This document shows, in pieces, positions 34,720 through 44,262 of a DNA stretch of 64,000 nt. Below the pieces are notes generated by a model, which ran no database searches, had not been told where the DNA came from, and was given only the letters and a program-made list of their open reading frames with translations. Location: positions 1 to 64,000 of the IMG/VR virus record IMGVR_UViG_3300027816_000103. One strand, written 5' to 3'. How positions within the stretch are numbered: position 1 is the first letter of the stretch; each line of letters opens with the position of its first letter. This DNA is from a virus. The translations under genes and the position numbers were made by a program.

Positions 34720-35391
34720 ATGGCAAAAATATTAGTAGCTTGTGAAGAAAGTCAAGCAATAACAAAAGCATTTAGAAAATTAGGACACGAAGCATTTAGT
34801 TGTGATTTGCTTCCTTGTAGTGGAGGACATCCAGAATGGCATTATCAACAAGATGTTTTTGAAGTGATTGATAAAGGATGGGATATGATGATTGCCCACC
34901 CACCTTGTACGTATTTATCAGTTGCAGGTGCTTGGGCAATGTATAATAAAGATGGAAGTATAAATGAAGTGCGAATGAAAAACCAAAATGATGCTTTGGA
35001 TTTTGTAAGAAAACTAATGGATGCACCAATAAAACATATTGCGATAGAAAACCCTATAAGTGTTATTAGTAGCCAAATCAGAAAGCCCGACCAAATTGTG
35101 CATCCATATCATTTTGGAGAAAAGGCAAGCAAAAGCACTTGTTTATGGTTGAAAAATTTACCAAAATTAAAGCATACAAATGTTGTTGAAAAAGGCGAGT
35201 TTAAGGAGTGGGTGGATAAAAAGAGTGGTAAAACAAAACGACAATCTACTTGGATTTATGATTGCTTACAACAAGCAAAATCACCCGAACATTTAAGAAC
35301 ATTACGAAGCAAAACATTTCAAGGAATTGCAGATGCTATTTCAGAACAGTGGGGAGGTTTTTTAAATTCTTTTTCTAACGAAAATGTTTAA
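34720..35391 (+). CDS. DNA methyltransferase-like protein
   Basis: 223 residues. N-terminus ILVACEESQAITKAFRKLGH with SCDLLP resembles a Rossmann AdoMet-binding start. HPPCTYLSVAG at about 60-70 contains the PPC motif comparable to motif IV of cytosine-C5 methyltransferases; AIENPISV at about 108 resembles motif VI. Similar proteins are common in phages and usually annotated as DNA methylases, often without proof of activity. Codon use (ACGA, CGA, more GC) and flanking inverted repeats set it apart from neighbours, suggesting recent acquisition. A role in protecting phage DNA from restriction is inferred. Confidence 0.65.
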   Translation: MAKILVACEESQAITKAFRKLGHEAFSCDLLPCSGGHPEWHYQQDVFEVIDKGWDMMIAHPPCTYLSVAGAWAMYNKDGSINEVRMKNQNDALDFVRKLMDAPIKHIAIENPISVISSQIRKPDQIVHPYHFGEKASKSTCLWLKNLPKLKHTNVVEKGEFKEWVDKKSGKTKRQSTWIYDCLQQAKSPEHLRTLRSKTFQGIADAISEQWGGFLNSFSNENV

Positions 35392-36293: not shown

Positions 36294-36505
36294 TGGACAA
36301 TAAAACAGCAGTAATGTGGTTGGCAGAACAACTTGAAAAGTATGGAACCACAGAACATCTACAGATCTCGTGGGAAAAGCTAGATAAGTTGGTCCAAAGA
36401 GCAATCAAAATAGAACAGAGAGAAAGAGTAGAAATATTCAGAGGAGGAAATGAGATAGTTAGAATGGCTACCCAAATAATAAGAAAAAAGAGAAACAATG
36501 AATAA
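36290..36505 (+). CDS. Hypothetical small helical protein
   Basis: 71 residues, MMDNKTAVMWLAEQLEKYGT. The TAVxWLxEQL start is frequent in small proteins of Bacteroidota phages and mobile elements. Helical and basic at the C-terminus. Overlaps the next gene by 8 bases. Function unknown. Confidence 0.65.
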   Translation: MMDNKTAVMWLAEQLEKYGTTEHLQISWEKLDKLVQRAIKIEQRERVEIFRGGNEIVRMATQIIRKKRNNE

Positions 36506-36878
36506 AGAACAACAAGAAAAGCACCTAGAGCATATCTTCTCCAAAATGCGGGAAATAATGCTTAAAAAAGGAAATGACTATGCCACACAAGACAGGCTAA
36601 GTAACTTCAAACTCGCAGGAAATATCTGTGGAATATCCCCAGAAATACAATGCCTATCCCTCATAGCCACAAAAGTAGCAAGACTATCCGTACTTTTGCA
36701 TAACCAAAATAAGCCTAACTATGAAAGCATTAGTGATAGCATCATTGATCTTATCAATTACTCAGCTCTGTTGGATATGCTACTCTTTGATAAAGAAGAA
36801 AAGAAAACAAAAACAAGCCTTAAAGAAATTGTCCAGAACAAAACAATTGAATATTGGACAAAAACACAAACAACATAG
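36498..36878 (+). CDS. DUF1599-like nucleotide-modification-associated protein
   Basis: 126 residues. HIFSKMREIMLKKGNDYATQ, RLSNFKLAGNICGISPE and IATKVARLSVLL followed by SISDSIIDLINYSALL fit the DUF1599 domain, which is related to the all-helical MazG-like nucleotide pyrophosphohydrolases and linked to nucleotide metabolism in phages. Expected metal-binding acidic residues are visible (KGNDYA, SISDSIIDL). It probably acts on free nucleotides in the cytoplasm. Family assignment by motif; activity inferred. Confidence 0.7.
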   Translation: MNKEQQEKHLEHIFSKMREIMLKKGNDYATQDRLSNFKLAGNICGISPEIQCLSLIATKVARLSVLLHNQNKPNYESISDSIIDLINYSALLDMLLFDKEEKKTKTSLKEIVQNKTIEYWTKTQTT

Positions 36879-36883
36879 CAATC

Positions 36884-37180
36884 ATGAAAACATCAACAAT
36901 CACACAAACAATCCTTAACGGAGAAACCTACTACAAAGGATTCTCAATCCAAAAGATTGAAAAGACAGACAGAACAATAGACCACGAACAAAGAAAGAGA
37001 TACTACGTCTACAGAGCCTATAGGCGGGGAATAATTGATAAGGTCCTCCCATCAAAACTAGAAGCCTGTAACTTTATAGACAACTTCATAACAGGACTAA
37101 CATCTTACCATACACTCCTTACAAACAACAAAGGACTACTCGATAACCTATTAACTGACATAGAACCTATAAACAACTAA
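36884..37180 (+). CDS. Hypothetical protein (98 aa)
   Basis: 98 residues from ATG at 36884; the frame extends upstream to a TTG inside the previous gene, which is unlikely to be used. Beta-rich first half (ILNGETYYKGFSIQKIEK; YYVYRAYRRGIIDKVLPSKL) and helical second half. Last gene before the terminator at 37206. Unknown function. Confidence 0.6.
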   Translation: MKTSTITQTILNGETYYKGFSIQKIEKTDRTIDHEQRKRYYVYRAYRRGIIDKVLPSKLEACNFIDNFITGLTSYHTLLTNNKGLLDNLLTDIEPINN

Positions 37181-37205
37181 AACCAATAAATAACCAACCA
37201 AACAA

Positions 37206-37238
37206 GAGCCTACTGTAAATTAGTAGGCTTCTTTATTT
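37206..37238 (+). terminator. Rho-independent terminator
   Basis: Eight-pair stem AGCCTACT (37207-37214) / AGTAGGCT (37222-37229), loop GTAAATT, followed by TCTTTATTTAT. Ends the operon that begins near 35569. Confidence 0.85.
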
Positions 37239-37910
37239 ATACCCCCTCCCATATCACATAATCGGAAATAAACCGATTAAACAAGTCGCATTTTGCGACC
37301 TCAAAATAAATAAGCCTTTAAAACAATAGAAAATACCCAAAAGGTATAAAAGGACACAAGAACATACAAAGTGCCTTAAAATCAATTTAAATCATGTTCT
37401 AATGGTATTTTAGATAGCATAAATAATATAGCGCCACAACACCCCCTCCGGTACAATAAAAACAGAAGCCAATTTCCTACTACAAATAATACACTTTGAA
37501 CAAGTACCCATGTGATTTGCATTTCTATGTGGGTGGGGGAGTATGCGTACCTTTCACCCCCTCCCCCGTTCCCGTTTCCCCAAGCGAAGCCAAGCGAAGA
37601 GGGGGACAAGGGGACACAAAATATTTTCTTATAATATCTATTATGTTAAGTACAGGTTTATGTAGCTGATATTCAGTTTTTTATCTGTGTTAAATGTATT
37701 TTTTGTAGTATTATTTCAGATTTTAACATATTTGCTTATAGTACGTTTTAACAATTTTATGTTAAATTAACAAATAGGACCAAGAAAGGAACTGAAAAAG
37801 ATTATTTGTTAAATTTGTTAATTGCTTATTTAGAATCGTTCTAAATAATGAACATTTAACAATTTTAACGTTTTTAACATTCACCATTTTTTTAGCTCAA
37901 AAAGTTAACG

Positions 37911-37927
37911 TGATAATATTATTATCA
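37911..37927. promoter_or_regulatory. Perfect palindrome TGATAATATTATTATCA, operator-like
   Basis: 17-base palindrome with 8-base arms, followed at 37934 by a further half-site TTGATAATC. Located in the non-coding region about 300 bases upstream of the 38226 promoter. Likely a dimeric regulator site. Confidence 0.45.
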
Positions 37928-38033
37928 AAGTATTGATAATCTTATTTGCTCTGCTTCGCTCCTCTTTTTTTATGTTCTTTTTGTTATGTTTATTTTTTTA
38001 GGTAATTATTTAAAGGATATTTTTTTTATTGCC

Positions 38034-38069
38034 GGTACAACAGGATCTACAGGTACAACAGGATCTACA
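38034..38069 (+). repeat. Tandem 18-base repeat encoding Gly-Thr-Thr-Gly-Ser-Thr
   Basis: GGTACAACAGGATCTACA occurs twice head to tail without mismatch. In one frame it reads GTTGST twice, as in a collagen-like Gly-X-Y tract, but the surrounding frame is short and hydrophobic. It may be a fragment of a collagen-like fibre gene or simply a local duplication. Confidence 0.6.
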
Positions 38070-38225
38070 TGTTTTGTTTATTGGTTTGTTTCTTATCTCT
38101 TCTCTCTCTGTGTTAGTTCTTATCTTTATATTTCCCGCCCGAGGCCTCACAAAGGCATTATTTTTATTTTCATTCTTATTTCCTACTATAATTAAGTATT
38201 TTAACATTCTTTAACATTTATACTA

Positions 38226-38255
38226 TTGACTTATTAGTTTATAGTAGTATATTTG
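38226..38255 (+). promoter_or_regulatory. Bacteroidota-type promoter of the amidoligase operon
   Basis: TTG at 38226-38228, 19-base spacer, TATATTTG at 38248-38255 (TAnnTTTG), 36 bases before the lipoprotein ATG at 38292. Both boxes and spacing match well. Confidence 0.75.
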
Positions 38256-38291
38256 CACTCATAAAACAATAACACAATAAAAACACACACA

Positions 38292-38489
38292 ATGAAAACA
38301 ACACACAACACACAAAAAAAGTTAGTATTAAATTTTAATTACTTCCTTTATGTTTTAGCCTTATTTTTAATCTGTCTTTTATTCTCTTGTTCCTCTTCAA
38401 AATGTTGTACTGGAGTGCAAAGTAAAAAGGCAATAAATAAGGCAATAAGCCATAAAAGTAACTTTATTAAAAAGAAATACAATTTATAA
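38292..38489 (+). CDS. Small lipoprotein
   Basis: 65 residues. A basic start (MKTTHNTQKKLVLNF), a hydrophobic segment (YFLYVLALFLICLL) and a lipobox LLFS-C at about residues 29-33 mark a signal peptidase II substrate; the mature part SSSKCCTGVQSKKAINKAIS is short and basic. First gene after a strong promoter, so probably early. Small phage lipoproteins at such positions often block superinfection, but they may also act in lysis. Function inferred only. Confidence 0.7.
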   Translation: MKTTHNTQKKLVLNFNYFLYVLALFLICLLFSCSSSKCCTGVQSKKAINKAISHKSNFIKKKYNL

Positions 38490-38498
38490 AACTTTATT

Positions 38499-38517
38499 CC
38501 CCCGCTTTTTGTGGGGG
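38499..38517 (+). other. GC-rich hairpin between lipoprotein gene and next gene
   Basis: CCCCCGC (38499-38505) / GTGGGGG (38511-38517) with loop TTTTT, one G-T pair. There is no strong T-run after it, so it is either a weak attenuator or an mRNA stabiliser that separates lipoprotein from downstream expression. Confidence 0.5.
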
Positions 38518-38537
38518 ATATTTAAAAAATTTCAATC

Positions 38538-38686: not shown

Positions 38687-39949
38687 ATGAACACACAAGA
38701 AAAAACAAACACAATTAGCGAATTAAGAGAGATAATAAATTTCGCTAATGAAAACGGAGAATATCCTAAAGACTTATTTTCATTCATACAAGAAAAACAA
38801 ATAAGTCTTAAAAATATCATATACTCAATAAAAAATCATGATATTTATTTAGATGATATTTTAGGAGATAAAAATTGTTTTGAACACAATGGATATTTTT
38901 ATAATTGCGAATTATGGATAATAACAAGAGAAGATGAAGTTGTTTACGTTGATGATGCTAACTTTTGCGAATACTCACAGGAATATACAACGGAAGATAT
39001 TACAGAAGTAAAAATAAGTAGGAGAGAATCTCAATACTGGAGTGAAAGTAAAGCTGAAAGATACGCTTATTTATATGGGGGTGATTATTACGAAAATTTA
39101 GAAAATTTCGACCTTGTTACCTGTACTGATGATGATGAAATTTACCACATTGATGACCTTTATTATTGGGAATCTGACCAAGAATACCACTTAGAATCCG
39201 AAGAAGAATCAGAAATTTATGTAAACGATTATCACTCAGGAAAACATGAAAAAATAACATTTACAGAAAATCAAAAATTCTTTATTGGTTATGAAATAGA
39301 GAAAGAAGATAAAGAGATAAAAGAATCTATTTGTATAAGTGATTTTAAGAGTAATTGCCCTAAGTGGAGAAAGGAAAGAGATGGTAGTTTAAATTCTGAA
39401 TCAGGGTTTGAATTAATTTCACCCACAATGGAATTAAATGTACAAGAGATAGAAAAGTATATTAGAAAAAATAAAACGCTCATAAGCCATATAAACGCGG
39501 AAAAATCGAATTCTTGTGGCGGGCATATAAATATTTCACAAATAGACTTAACAGGAGAAGAATTATTCGACAAAATTAAAGGATATACGCCCCTATTTTA
39601 TGCCTTATATCATAAAAGAGTAGATAAAGACTATTGCAAAGGAAAGAAAAATACAGAATTAAAAGGTCAAAACGAAAAATATCAAGCCATTAAGATACAT
39701 GATAACAGGGTAGAATATAGAATTATTAGTGCTGTTCCGAATTTCAATACTTTAATCTGGAGAACTAAATTATTTGATTTTATTTTAAATAACCAATCTT
39801 CCTGCCCAAAAGACGTATTTTTTAAAATTAATACATCACCATTAAAGGAATTATTAATGGAGCAATACCCAAACGAAAAATTTGAAGTATTAGTTAACAG
39901 GATTATATCCTTTACTCTTCAGTTCGAAAACATACAACTAAAAAAATAA
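38687..39949 (+). CDS. Putative amidoligase (COOH-NH2 ligase family)
   Basis: 420 residues. From residue about 196 the sequence follows the amidoligase_2 pattern: FFIGYEIEKED (about 198-208, the F-G-x-E-x-E motif), ERDGSLNSESGFELISPTME (about 229-248), SCGGHINIS (about 275-283), and a late EYRIISAVPN followed by LIWR (about 342-357). This family of the glutamine-synthetase fold joins a carboxyl to an amine using ATP. The N-terminal 190 residues are acidic with repeated YxxD-E-x-Y units that look like a degenerate treble-clef array lacking most Cys. The gene is followed by a class II glutamine amidotransferase gene, a known partnership. Substrate unknown. Confidence 0.75.
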   Translation: MNTQEKTNTISELREIINFANENGEYPKDLFSFIQEKQISLKNIIYSIKNHDIYLDDILGDKNCFEHNGYFYNCELWIITREDEVVYVDDANFCEYSQEYTTEDITEVKISRRESQYWSESKAERYAYLYGGDYYENLENFDLVTCTDDDEIYHIDDLYYWESDQEYHLESEEESEIYVNDYHSGKHEKITFTENQKFFIGYEIEKEDKEIKESICISDFKSNCPKWRKERDGSLNSESGFELISPTMELNVQEIEKYIRKNKTLISHINAEKSNSCGGHINISQIDLTGEELFDKIKGYTPLFYALYHKRVDKDYCKGKKNTELKGQNEKYQAIKIHDNRVEYRIISAVPNFNTLIWRTKLFDFILNNQSSCPKDVFFKINTSPLKELLMEQYPNEKFEVLVNRIISFTLQFENIQLKK

Positions 39950-39984
39950 AAATAACAATACAAAACAATTAAAAAACAAAAATT

Positions 39985-40797
39985 ATGTGCATAGCAATTT
40001 TAAACACCAAAAACAAATTAAAACTTGATTATTTAGAAAATTCATGGGAAAATAATAATCAAGGCGGAGGATTATTGTATAATCACAACGGAAAATTAAT
40101 AACCTTTAAAACTTATTCTAAGGAAATATTTATCGAGGAATACTACAAAGTTAGAAAGAAAATCACCGGTAAAATAGTGCTACATTTCAGAATAGCTACG
40201 TCAGGGCACACGCCTTATGTTAACTTACACCCATTCAAAGTCAATGATAATTTAGGCTTTGTACATAATGGAATAATTAACGGAATAGGCAATAAAGAAT
40301 ATTCAGATACATATTTCTTTAATGAGATGTTAAGAGAATTAAAACACGATTTTTTAAACTGCAAACAGACTAAAAAATTAATAGCAAACTATATTGGTAG
40401 TAGTAAATTAGTTTTTCTTGATAGCAAAGATAACCACACTATTATAAACGAAAAATTAGGGCATTGGCACGAAGGGGATTGGTTTTCAAACGATAGTTAT
40501 AAAAGCTATTCAGACTTTGTTTATTATGGTAATGAGAAAGTTTATAAGACAAGTAAAAAGAATGAAATCAGCGAAAAGGAATTTAACGACAGACTTTCTT
40601 GGTTTTCAAATACTATGACTTATAATTTAAGTTACTTGGCTGACTTGTTAGAAGTTGAGGAAAAAAGCTATGATCTAATAGAAAATATCGAAGATATTTC
40701 ATTCACTATAAATTCATTAGATATTGAAAGAATCATTGATTATGTTCTTACAGAGCTTTATAATGATGAACAAATTAATGATAAATTCCTATATTAA
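39985..40797 (+). CDS. Class II glutamine amidotransferase-like protein
   Basis: 270 residues starting MCIAILNTKN, with the catalytic Cys exposed as residue 2 after Met removal (Ntn-hydrolase). Conserved features follow: NNNQGGGLLYN, LHFRIATSGHTPYVNLHPF at about 66-84 and LGFVHNGIING at about 90-100, matching the glutaminase site of GATase II enzymes. It should release ammonia from glutamine. Adjacent amidoligase suggests that the ammonia or an amide is used in a peptide or small-molecule ligation. The C-terminal 90 residues are acidic helix without known match. Confidence 0.8.
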   Translation: MCIAILNTKNKLKLDYLENSWENNNQGGGLLYNHNGKLITFKTYSKEIFIEEYYKVRKKITGKIVLHFRIATSGHTPYVNLHPFKVNDNLGFVHNGIINGIGNKEYSDTYFFNEMLRELKHDFLNCKQTKKLIANYIGSSKLVFLDSKDNHTIINEKLGHWHEGDWFSNDSYKSYSDFVYYGNEKVYKTSKKNEISEKEFNDRLSWFSNTMTYNLSYLADLLEVEEKSYDLIENIEDISFTINSLDIERIIDYVLTELYNDEQINDKFLY

Positions 40798-40806
40798 AAA
40801 ACTTTG

Positions 40807-40837
40807 CAGAGGGAGGGAATTTCCCGCCCTCTGTTTT
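40807..40837 (+). terminator. Rho-independent terminator after the amidotransferase gene
   Basis: CAGAGGG (40807-40813) / CCCTCTG (40827-40833) with inner GGGAA/TTCCC pairs, followed by TTTT and an A-run. Ends the lipoprotein-amidoligase-amidotransferase segment or gives partial read-through into the small genes that follow. Confidence 0.8.
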
Positions 40838-40850
40838 AAAAAAAACAAAT

Positions 40851-41036
40851 ATGGAAAGCAATAAATTAAACGAACAGGAAATTGTTGACACAATGGGAAT
40901 GTACTTTGAAATTTTTTCTGTAATAGACAAATACAAAGAAATTAAGCCAACAGAAAAACTGATGAAAATACTACATTCAGATTACAATAATTTAAAAATG
41001 CAATACACAGAAATTCAAAAACAAAGAAATAAATAA
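40851..41036 (+). CDS. Small helical protein (61 aa)
   Basis: 61 residues, MESNKLNEQEIVDTMGMYFE, charged and helical. ATG preceded by an A-rich leader after the terminator. Several similarly sized genes follow at 20-30 base intervals, suggesting a cassette of small host-interaction proteins. Family unknown. Confidence 0.55.
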   Translation: MESNKLNEQEIVDTMGMYFEIFSVIDKYKEIKPTEKLMKILHSDYNNLKMQYTEIQKQRNK

Positions 41037-41059
41037 ATAACAAATTAAAAAATAAACTT

Positions 41060-41260
41060 ATGGAAAAAATAGAAATTAACAAATTAGAACTTGCTTCTGA
41101 ACTTGCACACGAAAAATTAATGAATGAATGGAGTAATTCTATAAAAATTTATGAAAATGAAACTGATAGTGTAACAAATTACACAGAAGAAGCACAAGAA
41201 ATATTTAATCAATTCTATGATGAATATTTAATATTAATAGAGTCTTGCAAAACAAATTAA
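41060..41260 (+). CDS. Small acidic helical protein (66 aa)
   Basis: 66 residues, MEKIEINKLELASELAHEKL, with predominantly helical and acidic sequence and an AQEIFNQFYDEYLILIES C-terminal helix. Standard A-rich leader. Unknown function; probably expressed with its neighbours. Confidence 0.55.
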   Translation: MEKIEINKLELASELAHEKLMNEWSNSIKIYENETDSVTNYTEEAQEIFNQFYDEYLILIESCKTN

Positions 41261-41284
41261 CAAACAATTTAAAATAACAACATA

Positions 41285-41728
41285 ATGAAAAATATTAAAG
41301 AGTATAAAATTACTCCTGTAAAAAATGATATAAAAATACCGAAAGAAACTATAAAAGATAGCATATCTGCATACAATGTTATAAGACAATTTTGGAATGA
41401 AGATATTGAAGTTTATGAATCTGTATTTATATTGTTAACTAATAGAAGAAATAATACAATAGGGTGGGCAAAAATTAGTCAGGGAGGAATATCAAGTTCA
41501 ATAATAGATATAAAAATTGTATGTAAATATGTAGTTGATAGCTTTGCATCTGGAGTAATTTTAGCACACAACCACCCTACAGGAAACTTAAATCCTAGCG
41601 AAAGTGATATAAAAATAACCAAACAAGTAAAAGAAGCAATAAAAGTTTTTGATTGTGAATTAATAGATCACCTTATAATAACACCAGAAAACAATTATTT
41701 CTCTTTTGCTGATGAAAGAGTAATATAA
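41285..41728 (+). CDS. RadC-like JAB-domain protein
   Basis: 147 residues. ILAHNHPTGNLNPSESDIKI at about 98-117 carries the JAMM/MPN+ signature H-x-H-P ... S-x-x-D, and IDHLIITPENNYFSFADE is the RadC C-terminal pattern. The chain contains only the JAB domain, without the N-terminal HhH part of full RadC, as is common for mobile-element and phage copies. Family members are related to metal-dependent isopeptidases, though RadC-type proteins have uncertain activity. It lies about 500 bases after the amidotransferase gene, which raises the question of a functional link. Confidence 0.8.
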   Translation: MKNIKEYKITPVKNDIKIPKETIKDSISAYNVIRQFWNEDIEVYESVFILLTNRRNNTIGWAKISQGGISSSIIDIKIVCKYVVDSFASGVILAHNHPTGNLNPSESDIKITKQVKEAIKVFDCELIDHLIITPENNYFSFADERVI

Positions 41729-41750: not shown

Positions 41751-42008
41751 ATGAAAAACAAAAATCAAAAATCAACTAATGTTTATGAAATAAACACAAC
41801 TGCATGGGATGAAGAAAATTTTTACTTGCTAACTACCCTTACAGAAAAACAAGTTATAAAAGTAATTAAACCTATTGTCAGTAAGGAAAGAAGAAGTAAT
41901 TCAGATGAATATTTTTATGACAATGAAACACTAGTTAGTACTTTAATTGAAAAATATCCTGATGAAGTGGTAGAATTTTATCAATCATTTGAAACAATAA
42001 CAATTTAA
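41751..42008 (+). CDS. Hypothetical protein (85 aa)
   Basis: 85 residues. MKNKNQKSTNVYEINTTAWD, then FYLLTTLTEKQVIKVIKPIV, then an acidic C-terminus. Encoded between the JAB gene and a cluster of very small genes. No family recognised. Confidence 0.55.
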   Translation: MKNKNQKSTNVYEINTTAWDEENFYLLTTLTEKQVIKVIKPIVSKERRSNSDEYFYDNETLVSTLIEKYPDEVVEFYQSFETITI

Positions 42009-43899: not shown

Positions 43900-44070
43900 A
43901 TGAAAGCAAAAAAATCAGGCGCTAAAATGCCAGGTGCAGGAATGGCGAAGAAAGTAACCATGAAAGCAAGCAAAGGAAGTATTAAGCCTTCCGCTAAGAA
44001 AATGACAATGAAAATGGGAACTGCTAAAAAGGCTTCCGCTAAATTGTCATACGGAAAAAAGATGAAATAA
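43900..44070 (+). CDS. Very basic Lys/Ala/Met-rich small protein
   Basis: 56 residues: MKAKKSGAKMPGAGMAKKVT, then MKASKGSIKPSAKKMTMKMG, then TAKKASAKLSYGKKMK. About a third Lys, no acidic residues; resembles histone H1 tails or condensing peptides. ATG at 43900 after AATAAAAA; stop 3 bases before the next ATG. Likely binds nucleic acid, perhaps helping DNA compaction or interacting with the host chromosome or ribosome. A near-consensus GATATTTG lies about 29 bases upstream. Confidence 0.6.
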   Translation: MKAKKSGAKMPGAGMAKKVTMKASKGSIKPSAKKMTMKMGTAKKASAKLSYGKKMK

Positions 44071-44073
44071 TTT

Positions 44074-44262
44074 ATGAAAAAATCATCTAAGCATCCAGGC
44101 TTCAAAGCTGTTCAAAAGAAAATTGCATCTAAGCAAGGAATATCTATGGACAGAGCAGGAGCTATCTTAGCAGCAGGGGCGAGAAAAGCATCTCCCTCCG
44201 CTATCAAAAAAAATCCAAGTCTGAAAAAAGTATCAGGCGTGGTAAAGAAAAAATCCAAATAA
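44074..44262 (+). CDS. Small basic phage protein (62 aa)
   Basis: 62 residues. KHPGFKAVQKKIASKQGISM, then DRAGAILAAGARKASPSAIK, then a Lys-rich end. This K-H-P-G-F-K-A-V-Q-x-x-I-A ... A-G-A-I-L-A pattern recurs in many phages of unrelated hosts as a small virion-block or nucleoid-type protein. Function not established. Encoded directly after another highly basic protein. Confidence 0.7.
   Translation: MKKSSKHPGFKAVQKKIASKQGISMDRAGAILAAGARKASPSAIKKNPSLKKVSGVVKKKSK

Follow-up and report, generated by a model that had tools for sequence, protein, structure and literature searches.

Two adjacent phage genes, coding for a predicted glutamine-synthetase-fold amidoligase (AMD) and a putative class II glutamine amidotransferase (GAT), form a stable two-gene unit, as seen from their adjacency and correlated divergence across related loci. 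The two families point to a glutamine-dependent, two-subunit amidoligase, a chemistry that we hold with considerable confidence, and the RadC-type JAB gene downstream is most likely a separate early gene, an unrelated neighbour and not a deconjugase for AMD-GAT.

The window is the whole stretch of DNA analysed, 64,000 of the 65,675 bases of virus record IMGVR_UViG_3300027816_000103, and its phage appears to be of Bacteroidota type, judging by a promoter-like site, composition and relatives. Searches with its TerL (against viral contigs) and its portal protein (against phages) returned zero relatives. Five open reading frames of the ORF list follow one another on the plus strand: AMD (38687-39949, 420 aa), GAT (39985-40797, 270 aa), two small ORFs that the original prediction had also placed there (40851-41036 and 41060-41260), and the stand-alone JAB gene (41285-41728, 147 aa), which lies outside the AMD-GAT unit. 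The terminator predicted between GAT and JAB (40807-40837) is present as a plus-strand hairpin 3' of GAT at 40806-40834 (-21.0 kcal/mol, then TTTTAAAAAAAA), and is missing from the output of a stricter terminator scan. Upstream of AMD, a 65-aa lipoprotein-like ORF with a lipobox-like LLFSC motif (38292-38489, plus strand) had been taken to lead the operon behind a strong promoter. The lipoprotein lead is doubtful because a second hairpin, at about 38498-38518 (-16 kcal/mol), sits between this ORF and AMD. The strong promoter is not borne out, because the Bacteroidota-type pattern, TTG N19 TATATTTG, which matches 5' of the lipoprotein-like ORF (38226-38255, plus strand), has 12 matches on the plus strand of the window, so that the site at 38226 carries little weight; sigma-70 promoter matches were at chance level (36 found, 34.8 expected).

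Several nearby features deserve mention in their own right. About 1.1 kb (37180-38290) contains no convincing genes and includes a GC-rich stretch (37510-37605) with a predicted fold of -35 kcal/mol, as well as a repeated GGTACAACAGGATCTACA near 38034. Beyond JAB, an 85-aa gene of unknown function (41751-42008) has relatives 3' of AMD-GAT in nine other loci (cluster 20), and two adjoining genes (43900-44070 and 44074-44262) encode small, very basic, Lys/Ala-rich proteins of histone-like composition.

Taken singly, both proteins of the pair score below the curated Pfam cut-offs: AMD against PF12224 with an E-value of 0.0095 (16.3 bits, cut-off 22) and GAT against GATase_6 with an E-value of 0.0036. 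Independent confirmation was therefore needed, and it came from alignments of homologues, from their conserved motifs and from structure models. The profile matches foreseen in the original prediction were found in relatives of the two proteins and not above cut-off in the window's own: 14 of 49 aligned AMD relatives match PF12224 at E <= 0.01 (best 1e-12), and GATase_4 is matched by 30 of 38 GAT relatives.

The AlphaFold model of AMD (mean pLDDT 94) places small beta-hairpin units at residues ~60-180 ahead of a catalytic domain at ~197-420. Foldseek against the PDB ranks glutamine synthetases first, followed by Dop, GmaS and YbdK, with probabilities up to 1.00 and low TM-scores (0.22-0.29), so the fold assignment rests on the Foldseek probability together with the motifs. 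These are GxExE (201-205), DGS (232-234), GFEL (240-243), CGGH (277-280) and ExR (343-345); GxExE, DxS, E242, GxH and ExR are present in at least 99 of 103 AMD-GAT pairs, and E203, E205, D232, S234, E242, H280, E343 and R345, which include the charged residues, are kept in 102-103. A modelled glutamine-synthetase-type fold with this acidic, histidine and arginine signature marks AMD as a putative amidoligase of the Amidoligase_2-like kind. We also considered whether its N-terminus is a degenerate zinc-ribbon array, and this is not supported directly: hhalign links the region to an intermediate clade (97%) but not to Cys-rich arrays (2.9%). Such arrays do occur at the AMD N-terminus of other loci (L151:8360-9604 and L072:8645-9994), with as many as 42 Cys and 15 CxxC motifs within 181 aa, and are probably metal-binding.

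The predicted model of GAT (pLDDT 91) has the GlmS glutaminase domain as its best Foldseek match, and C2, R69, N95, G96 and D108 are invariant in all 103 pairs, Cys2 having been checked for loss among homologues and found in every one. The Cys/Arg/Asn-Gly/Asp set and the predicted Ntn fold identify GAT as a putative class II glutamine amidotransferase with Cys2 as nucleophile. With alignments, catalytic residues and fold matches all in agreement, the ligase of glutamine-synthetase fold and the adjoining Ntn glutaminase of the original prediction were confirmed.

A tblastn search of AMD against isolate phages gave zero matches, and single-protein scans of viral contigs matched solely a fragment of the window's own phage, so alignment-based scans of IMG/VR were used instead, from which we kept the best 80 of 197 confirmed GAT loci and 68 AMD loci. 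The resulting non-redundant set holds 119 loci, many of them on fragmentary contigs (L numbers label these and the other loci named here); since they were picked by similarity to AMD or GAT, the counts describe the AMD/GAT family and not phages at large. In 111 of the 119, AMD immediately precedes GAT. Of the eight exceptions, five are cut short by the end of the contig, start-site artefacts account for two (L007, L082), and the last (L114) shows a ~650-nt gap. The next commonest neighbour family occurs in 21 of 119 loci, and other neighbours are not conserved. Divergence of AMD and of GAT is correlated across the 103 pairs (r = 0.83; best of 1000 permutations, 0.09), a correlation that shared phage ancestry alone can produce. 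The same pairing occurs in the isolate phages MEP401, MEP402, ctgrD200 and StenR_269, and on bacterial contigs, many of which are perhaps prophages. Adjacency and correlated divergence, added to the conserved catalytic residues and fold matches, uphold the amidoligase-amidotransferase pairing as originally predicted. Variants of the arrangement include two AMD genes flanking one GAT (L048, L051, L053, L054, L061 and L066) and the order AMD-GAT-AMD-GAT (L059); the doubled AMD perhaps reflects two acceptors or a heteromer. An apparent AMD-GAT fusion (L252) was set aside, its junction being Pro/Arg-rich and outside the AMD match, as would result from a reading-frame error in a MAG of high GC content.

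We propose that AMD and GAT are the two subunits of a glutamine-dependent amidoligase, in which GAT would hydrolyse glutamine at Cys2 to supply ammonia, and AMD would activate an acceptor carboxylate with ATP and join it to this ammonia, or else to some small amine, giving an amide. Computation establishes the order of the genes, their folds, the catalytic residues and the obligate pairing; the chemistry is read from the two families. The acceptor would most likely be a glutamyl or other peptide carboxylate of host envelope precursors; this is the single most likely choice, and one that we put forward tentatively. The benefit to the phage, we infer, may be a host wall altered on infection, say to fend off another phage or a lysin. 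Taken as a whole, the model of a two-subunit glutamine-dependent amidoligase with an envelope peptide as acceptor and JAB as a separate gene appears to us rather probable.

Cellular enzymes of the MurT/GatD and AsnB/LtsA types likewise use glutamine-derived ammonia to amidate a cell-wall peptide carboxylate. Their ligases are unrelated to AMD, having a Mur ligase fold or being of the AsnB synthetase type, and GatD is, to our knowledge, not a class II amidotransferase. That peptidoglycan amidation can affect phage sensitivity is indicated by asnH mutants of L. casei, which resist phage J1 (PMC3885529). Closer to the window's pair is a set of early genes in podoviruses (phiEco32, LUZ24, tf, PaP3, RIO-1, PSA-HP1), which shares one or more amidoligases of glutamine-synthetase fold and a class II amidotransferase. 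Two reports describe the amidoligase, amidotransferase and gamma-glutamyl cyclotransferase genes as a 'peptidoglycan modification cassette' and propose that it interferes with superinfection (PMC5498523, PMC11945000), and others place part of the cassette genes in UFV-P2 and tf (PMC3890496, PMC3517423); these papers credit the idea in large part to Iyer et al., and the cell-wall role is there itself a prediction. The bare pair is reported from OM43 phages (PMC10580990). To the original prediction, such a set in a short-tailed Bacteroidota phage seemed little described; for short-tailed phages in general this is wrong. The OM43 phages MEP401 and MEP402 (Zobellviridae) and the podovirus ctgrD200 carry the same two adjacent genes in the same order, their GAT being 24-33% identical to the window's with the same catalytic residues, and their AMD sharing just 17-23% identity and differing in its N-terminal region. 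We found no experiment on a phage AMD or GAT in the literature, and the excerpts of the podovirus, OM43 and Phage-ZRK32 papers demonstrate no substrate of the pair.

Gamma-glutamyl cyclotransferase (GGACT), present as a gene in the podovirus cassette, recurs among distant relatives of the pair. Nine GATs, 16-24% identical to the window's, have a C-terminal GGACT domain (L114, L116, L118, L119, L120, L122, L123, L129 and L132); a GGACT gene lies just upstream of AMD in L036 and ~6 kb downstream of GAT in L071, L076, L083 and L088; and the StenR_269 set combines GGCT, an ATP-grasp ligase, a GS-like gene, an amidoligase and two GATs. The fusions point to gamma-glutamyl or carboxyl-amide chemistry. 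The window's phage has its amidoligase and amidotransferase together, as in the podoviruses, but differs from the cassette in that the GGACT profile (PF06094) has zero matches in its 65,675-base record, where the same search was positive in 5 of 25 AMD-GAT records and in 9 control genomes. It differs further in that one single-sequence StenR_269 query found no ATP-grasp relative, and in that the phage is apparently Bacteroidota-type. A second ligase, PF14395 (COOH-NH2_lig), also had zero matches, and no control gave a match either. With neither a GGACT match nor an ATP-grasp relative, the larger cassette appears to be absent, and its proposed target is not simply transferable to this phage.

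The original prediction had joined AMD and GAT to JAB in a conjugation and deconjugation system, the pair attaching a tag or amide and JAB removing it. Its stand-alone JAB/RadC-like gene about 500 bases on is real: the 147-aa product matches RadC/JAB (PF04002) with an E-value of 4e-33, its sole PDB match is the RadC structure 2qlc, and the gene starts 488 bp beyond GAT, in the same orientation. The JAMM-type residues E45, H95xH97 and D108 (HNHP...SxxD) are conserved in five relatives, and wherever an AMD/GAT locus carries JAB (the window's phage, L014, L018 and L106), JAB follows GAT and shares its strand. The Pup ligase and depupylase, PafA and Dop, have a fold related to that of glutamine synthetase, Dop is itself a Foldseek match of AMD, and the resemblance would suit tag chemistry; no Pup-like tag was identified at the window locus, however, and the Pup system is not known to include a GAT. 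The linkage, moreover, is rare from both sides: those four loci are 4 of 119, and the 80 nearest JAB loci include 3 with AMD or GAT (the window's phage, L014, and L018, which is also L208). Many of these JAB loci are short, but of the 50 that extend 3 kb or more upstream, just two have AMD or GAT. In a whole-record search, PF04002 was absent from all 24 of the other AMD-GAT records, which are 48-69 kb long. This rarity among related phages, together with the absence from those 24 records, essentially answers the co-occurrence question against the original proposal. The hairpin also separates GAT from the next gene, and RadC-type JAB proteins have been argued to be without the groove for a ubiquitin tail and to act more likely on nucleic acids or nucleotides (Aravind and co-workers, PMC5512222). 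Tenacibaculum phage Gundel_1 has a stand-alone RadC-type JAB, 43% identical to the window's, at a locus that, unlike the window's, has no AMD or GAT nearby. We regard a deconjugating role for JAB as highly improbable. Separately, a JAB gene 99% identical to the window's on IMG/VR contig 3300032116_003222 (L154:517-957) reveals close kin of the window's phage in a second sample.

Other substrates for the pair were weighed against the envelope peptide. Modification of a nucleobase of phage DNA would be suggested by two genes that lie 2-4 kb upstream, one DUF1599-like ('nucleotide modification associated domain 1', 36498-36878) and the other resembling a DNA methyltransferase (34720-35391), but neither belongs to a frequent neighbour family of AMD-GAT and the DUF1599 match is below the Pfam cut-off, which makes this substrate very improbable too. 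A side chain or terminus of a phage or host protein, with the AMD beta-hairpin array as the targeting part, is an unlikely target: the array is well predicted and precedes the ligase domain, Cys-rich arrays occupy the same place in distant relatives, and PafA and Dop belong to the same fold class, yet the survey of 119 neighbourhoods found no conserved small protein partner, the hhalign link of the N-terminus is to the intermediate clade and not to the Cys-rich arrays, and the GGACT fusions indicate gamma-glutamyl compounds. That the hairpin region directs amidation of one specific protein or cell-surface peptide during infection is a more distant prospect still; if true, it would be a stand-alone amidation, blunting host defence for example, and a modification undescribed so far. 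The GGACT fusions suit small gamma-glutamyl compounds and with them a metabolic set, which would rearrange nitrogen (glutamine and ammonia) or provide the infected cell with some small gamma-glutamyl metabolite. The Phage-ZRK32 report suggests such a nitrogen-metabolism role for its amidoligase, GAT and GGCT genes (PMC10945688), but the proposal there is speculation from whole-phage growth data, and AMD-GAT has no conserved metabolic neighbour; we consider this reading improbable, if slightly easier to entertain than a protein target.

The pair in the window is most likely a minimal two-gene form of an enzyme set already known from many phages, and AMD-GAT is widespread in environmental phage contigs: one scan confirmed 197 GAT-related stretches, the best 80 of which were kept. 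Its occurrence as just two genes, together with the GAT-GGACT fusions, narrows its chemistry to glutamine-fed, probably gamma-glutamyl-related amide formation, in a system small enough for direct expression and testing.
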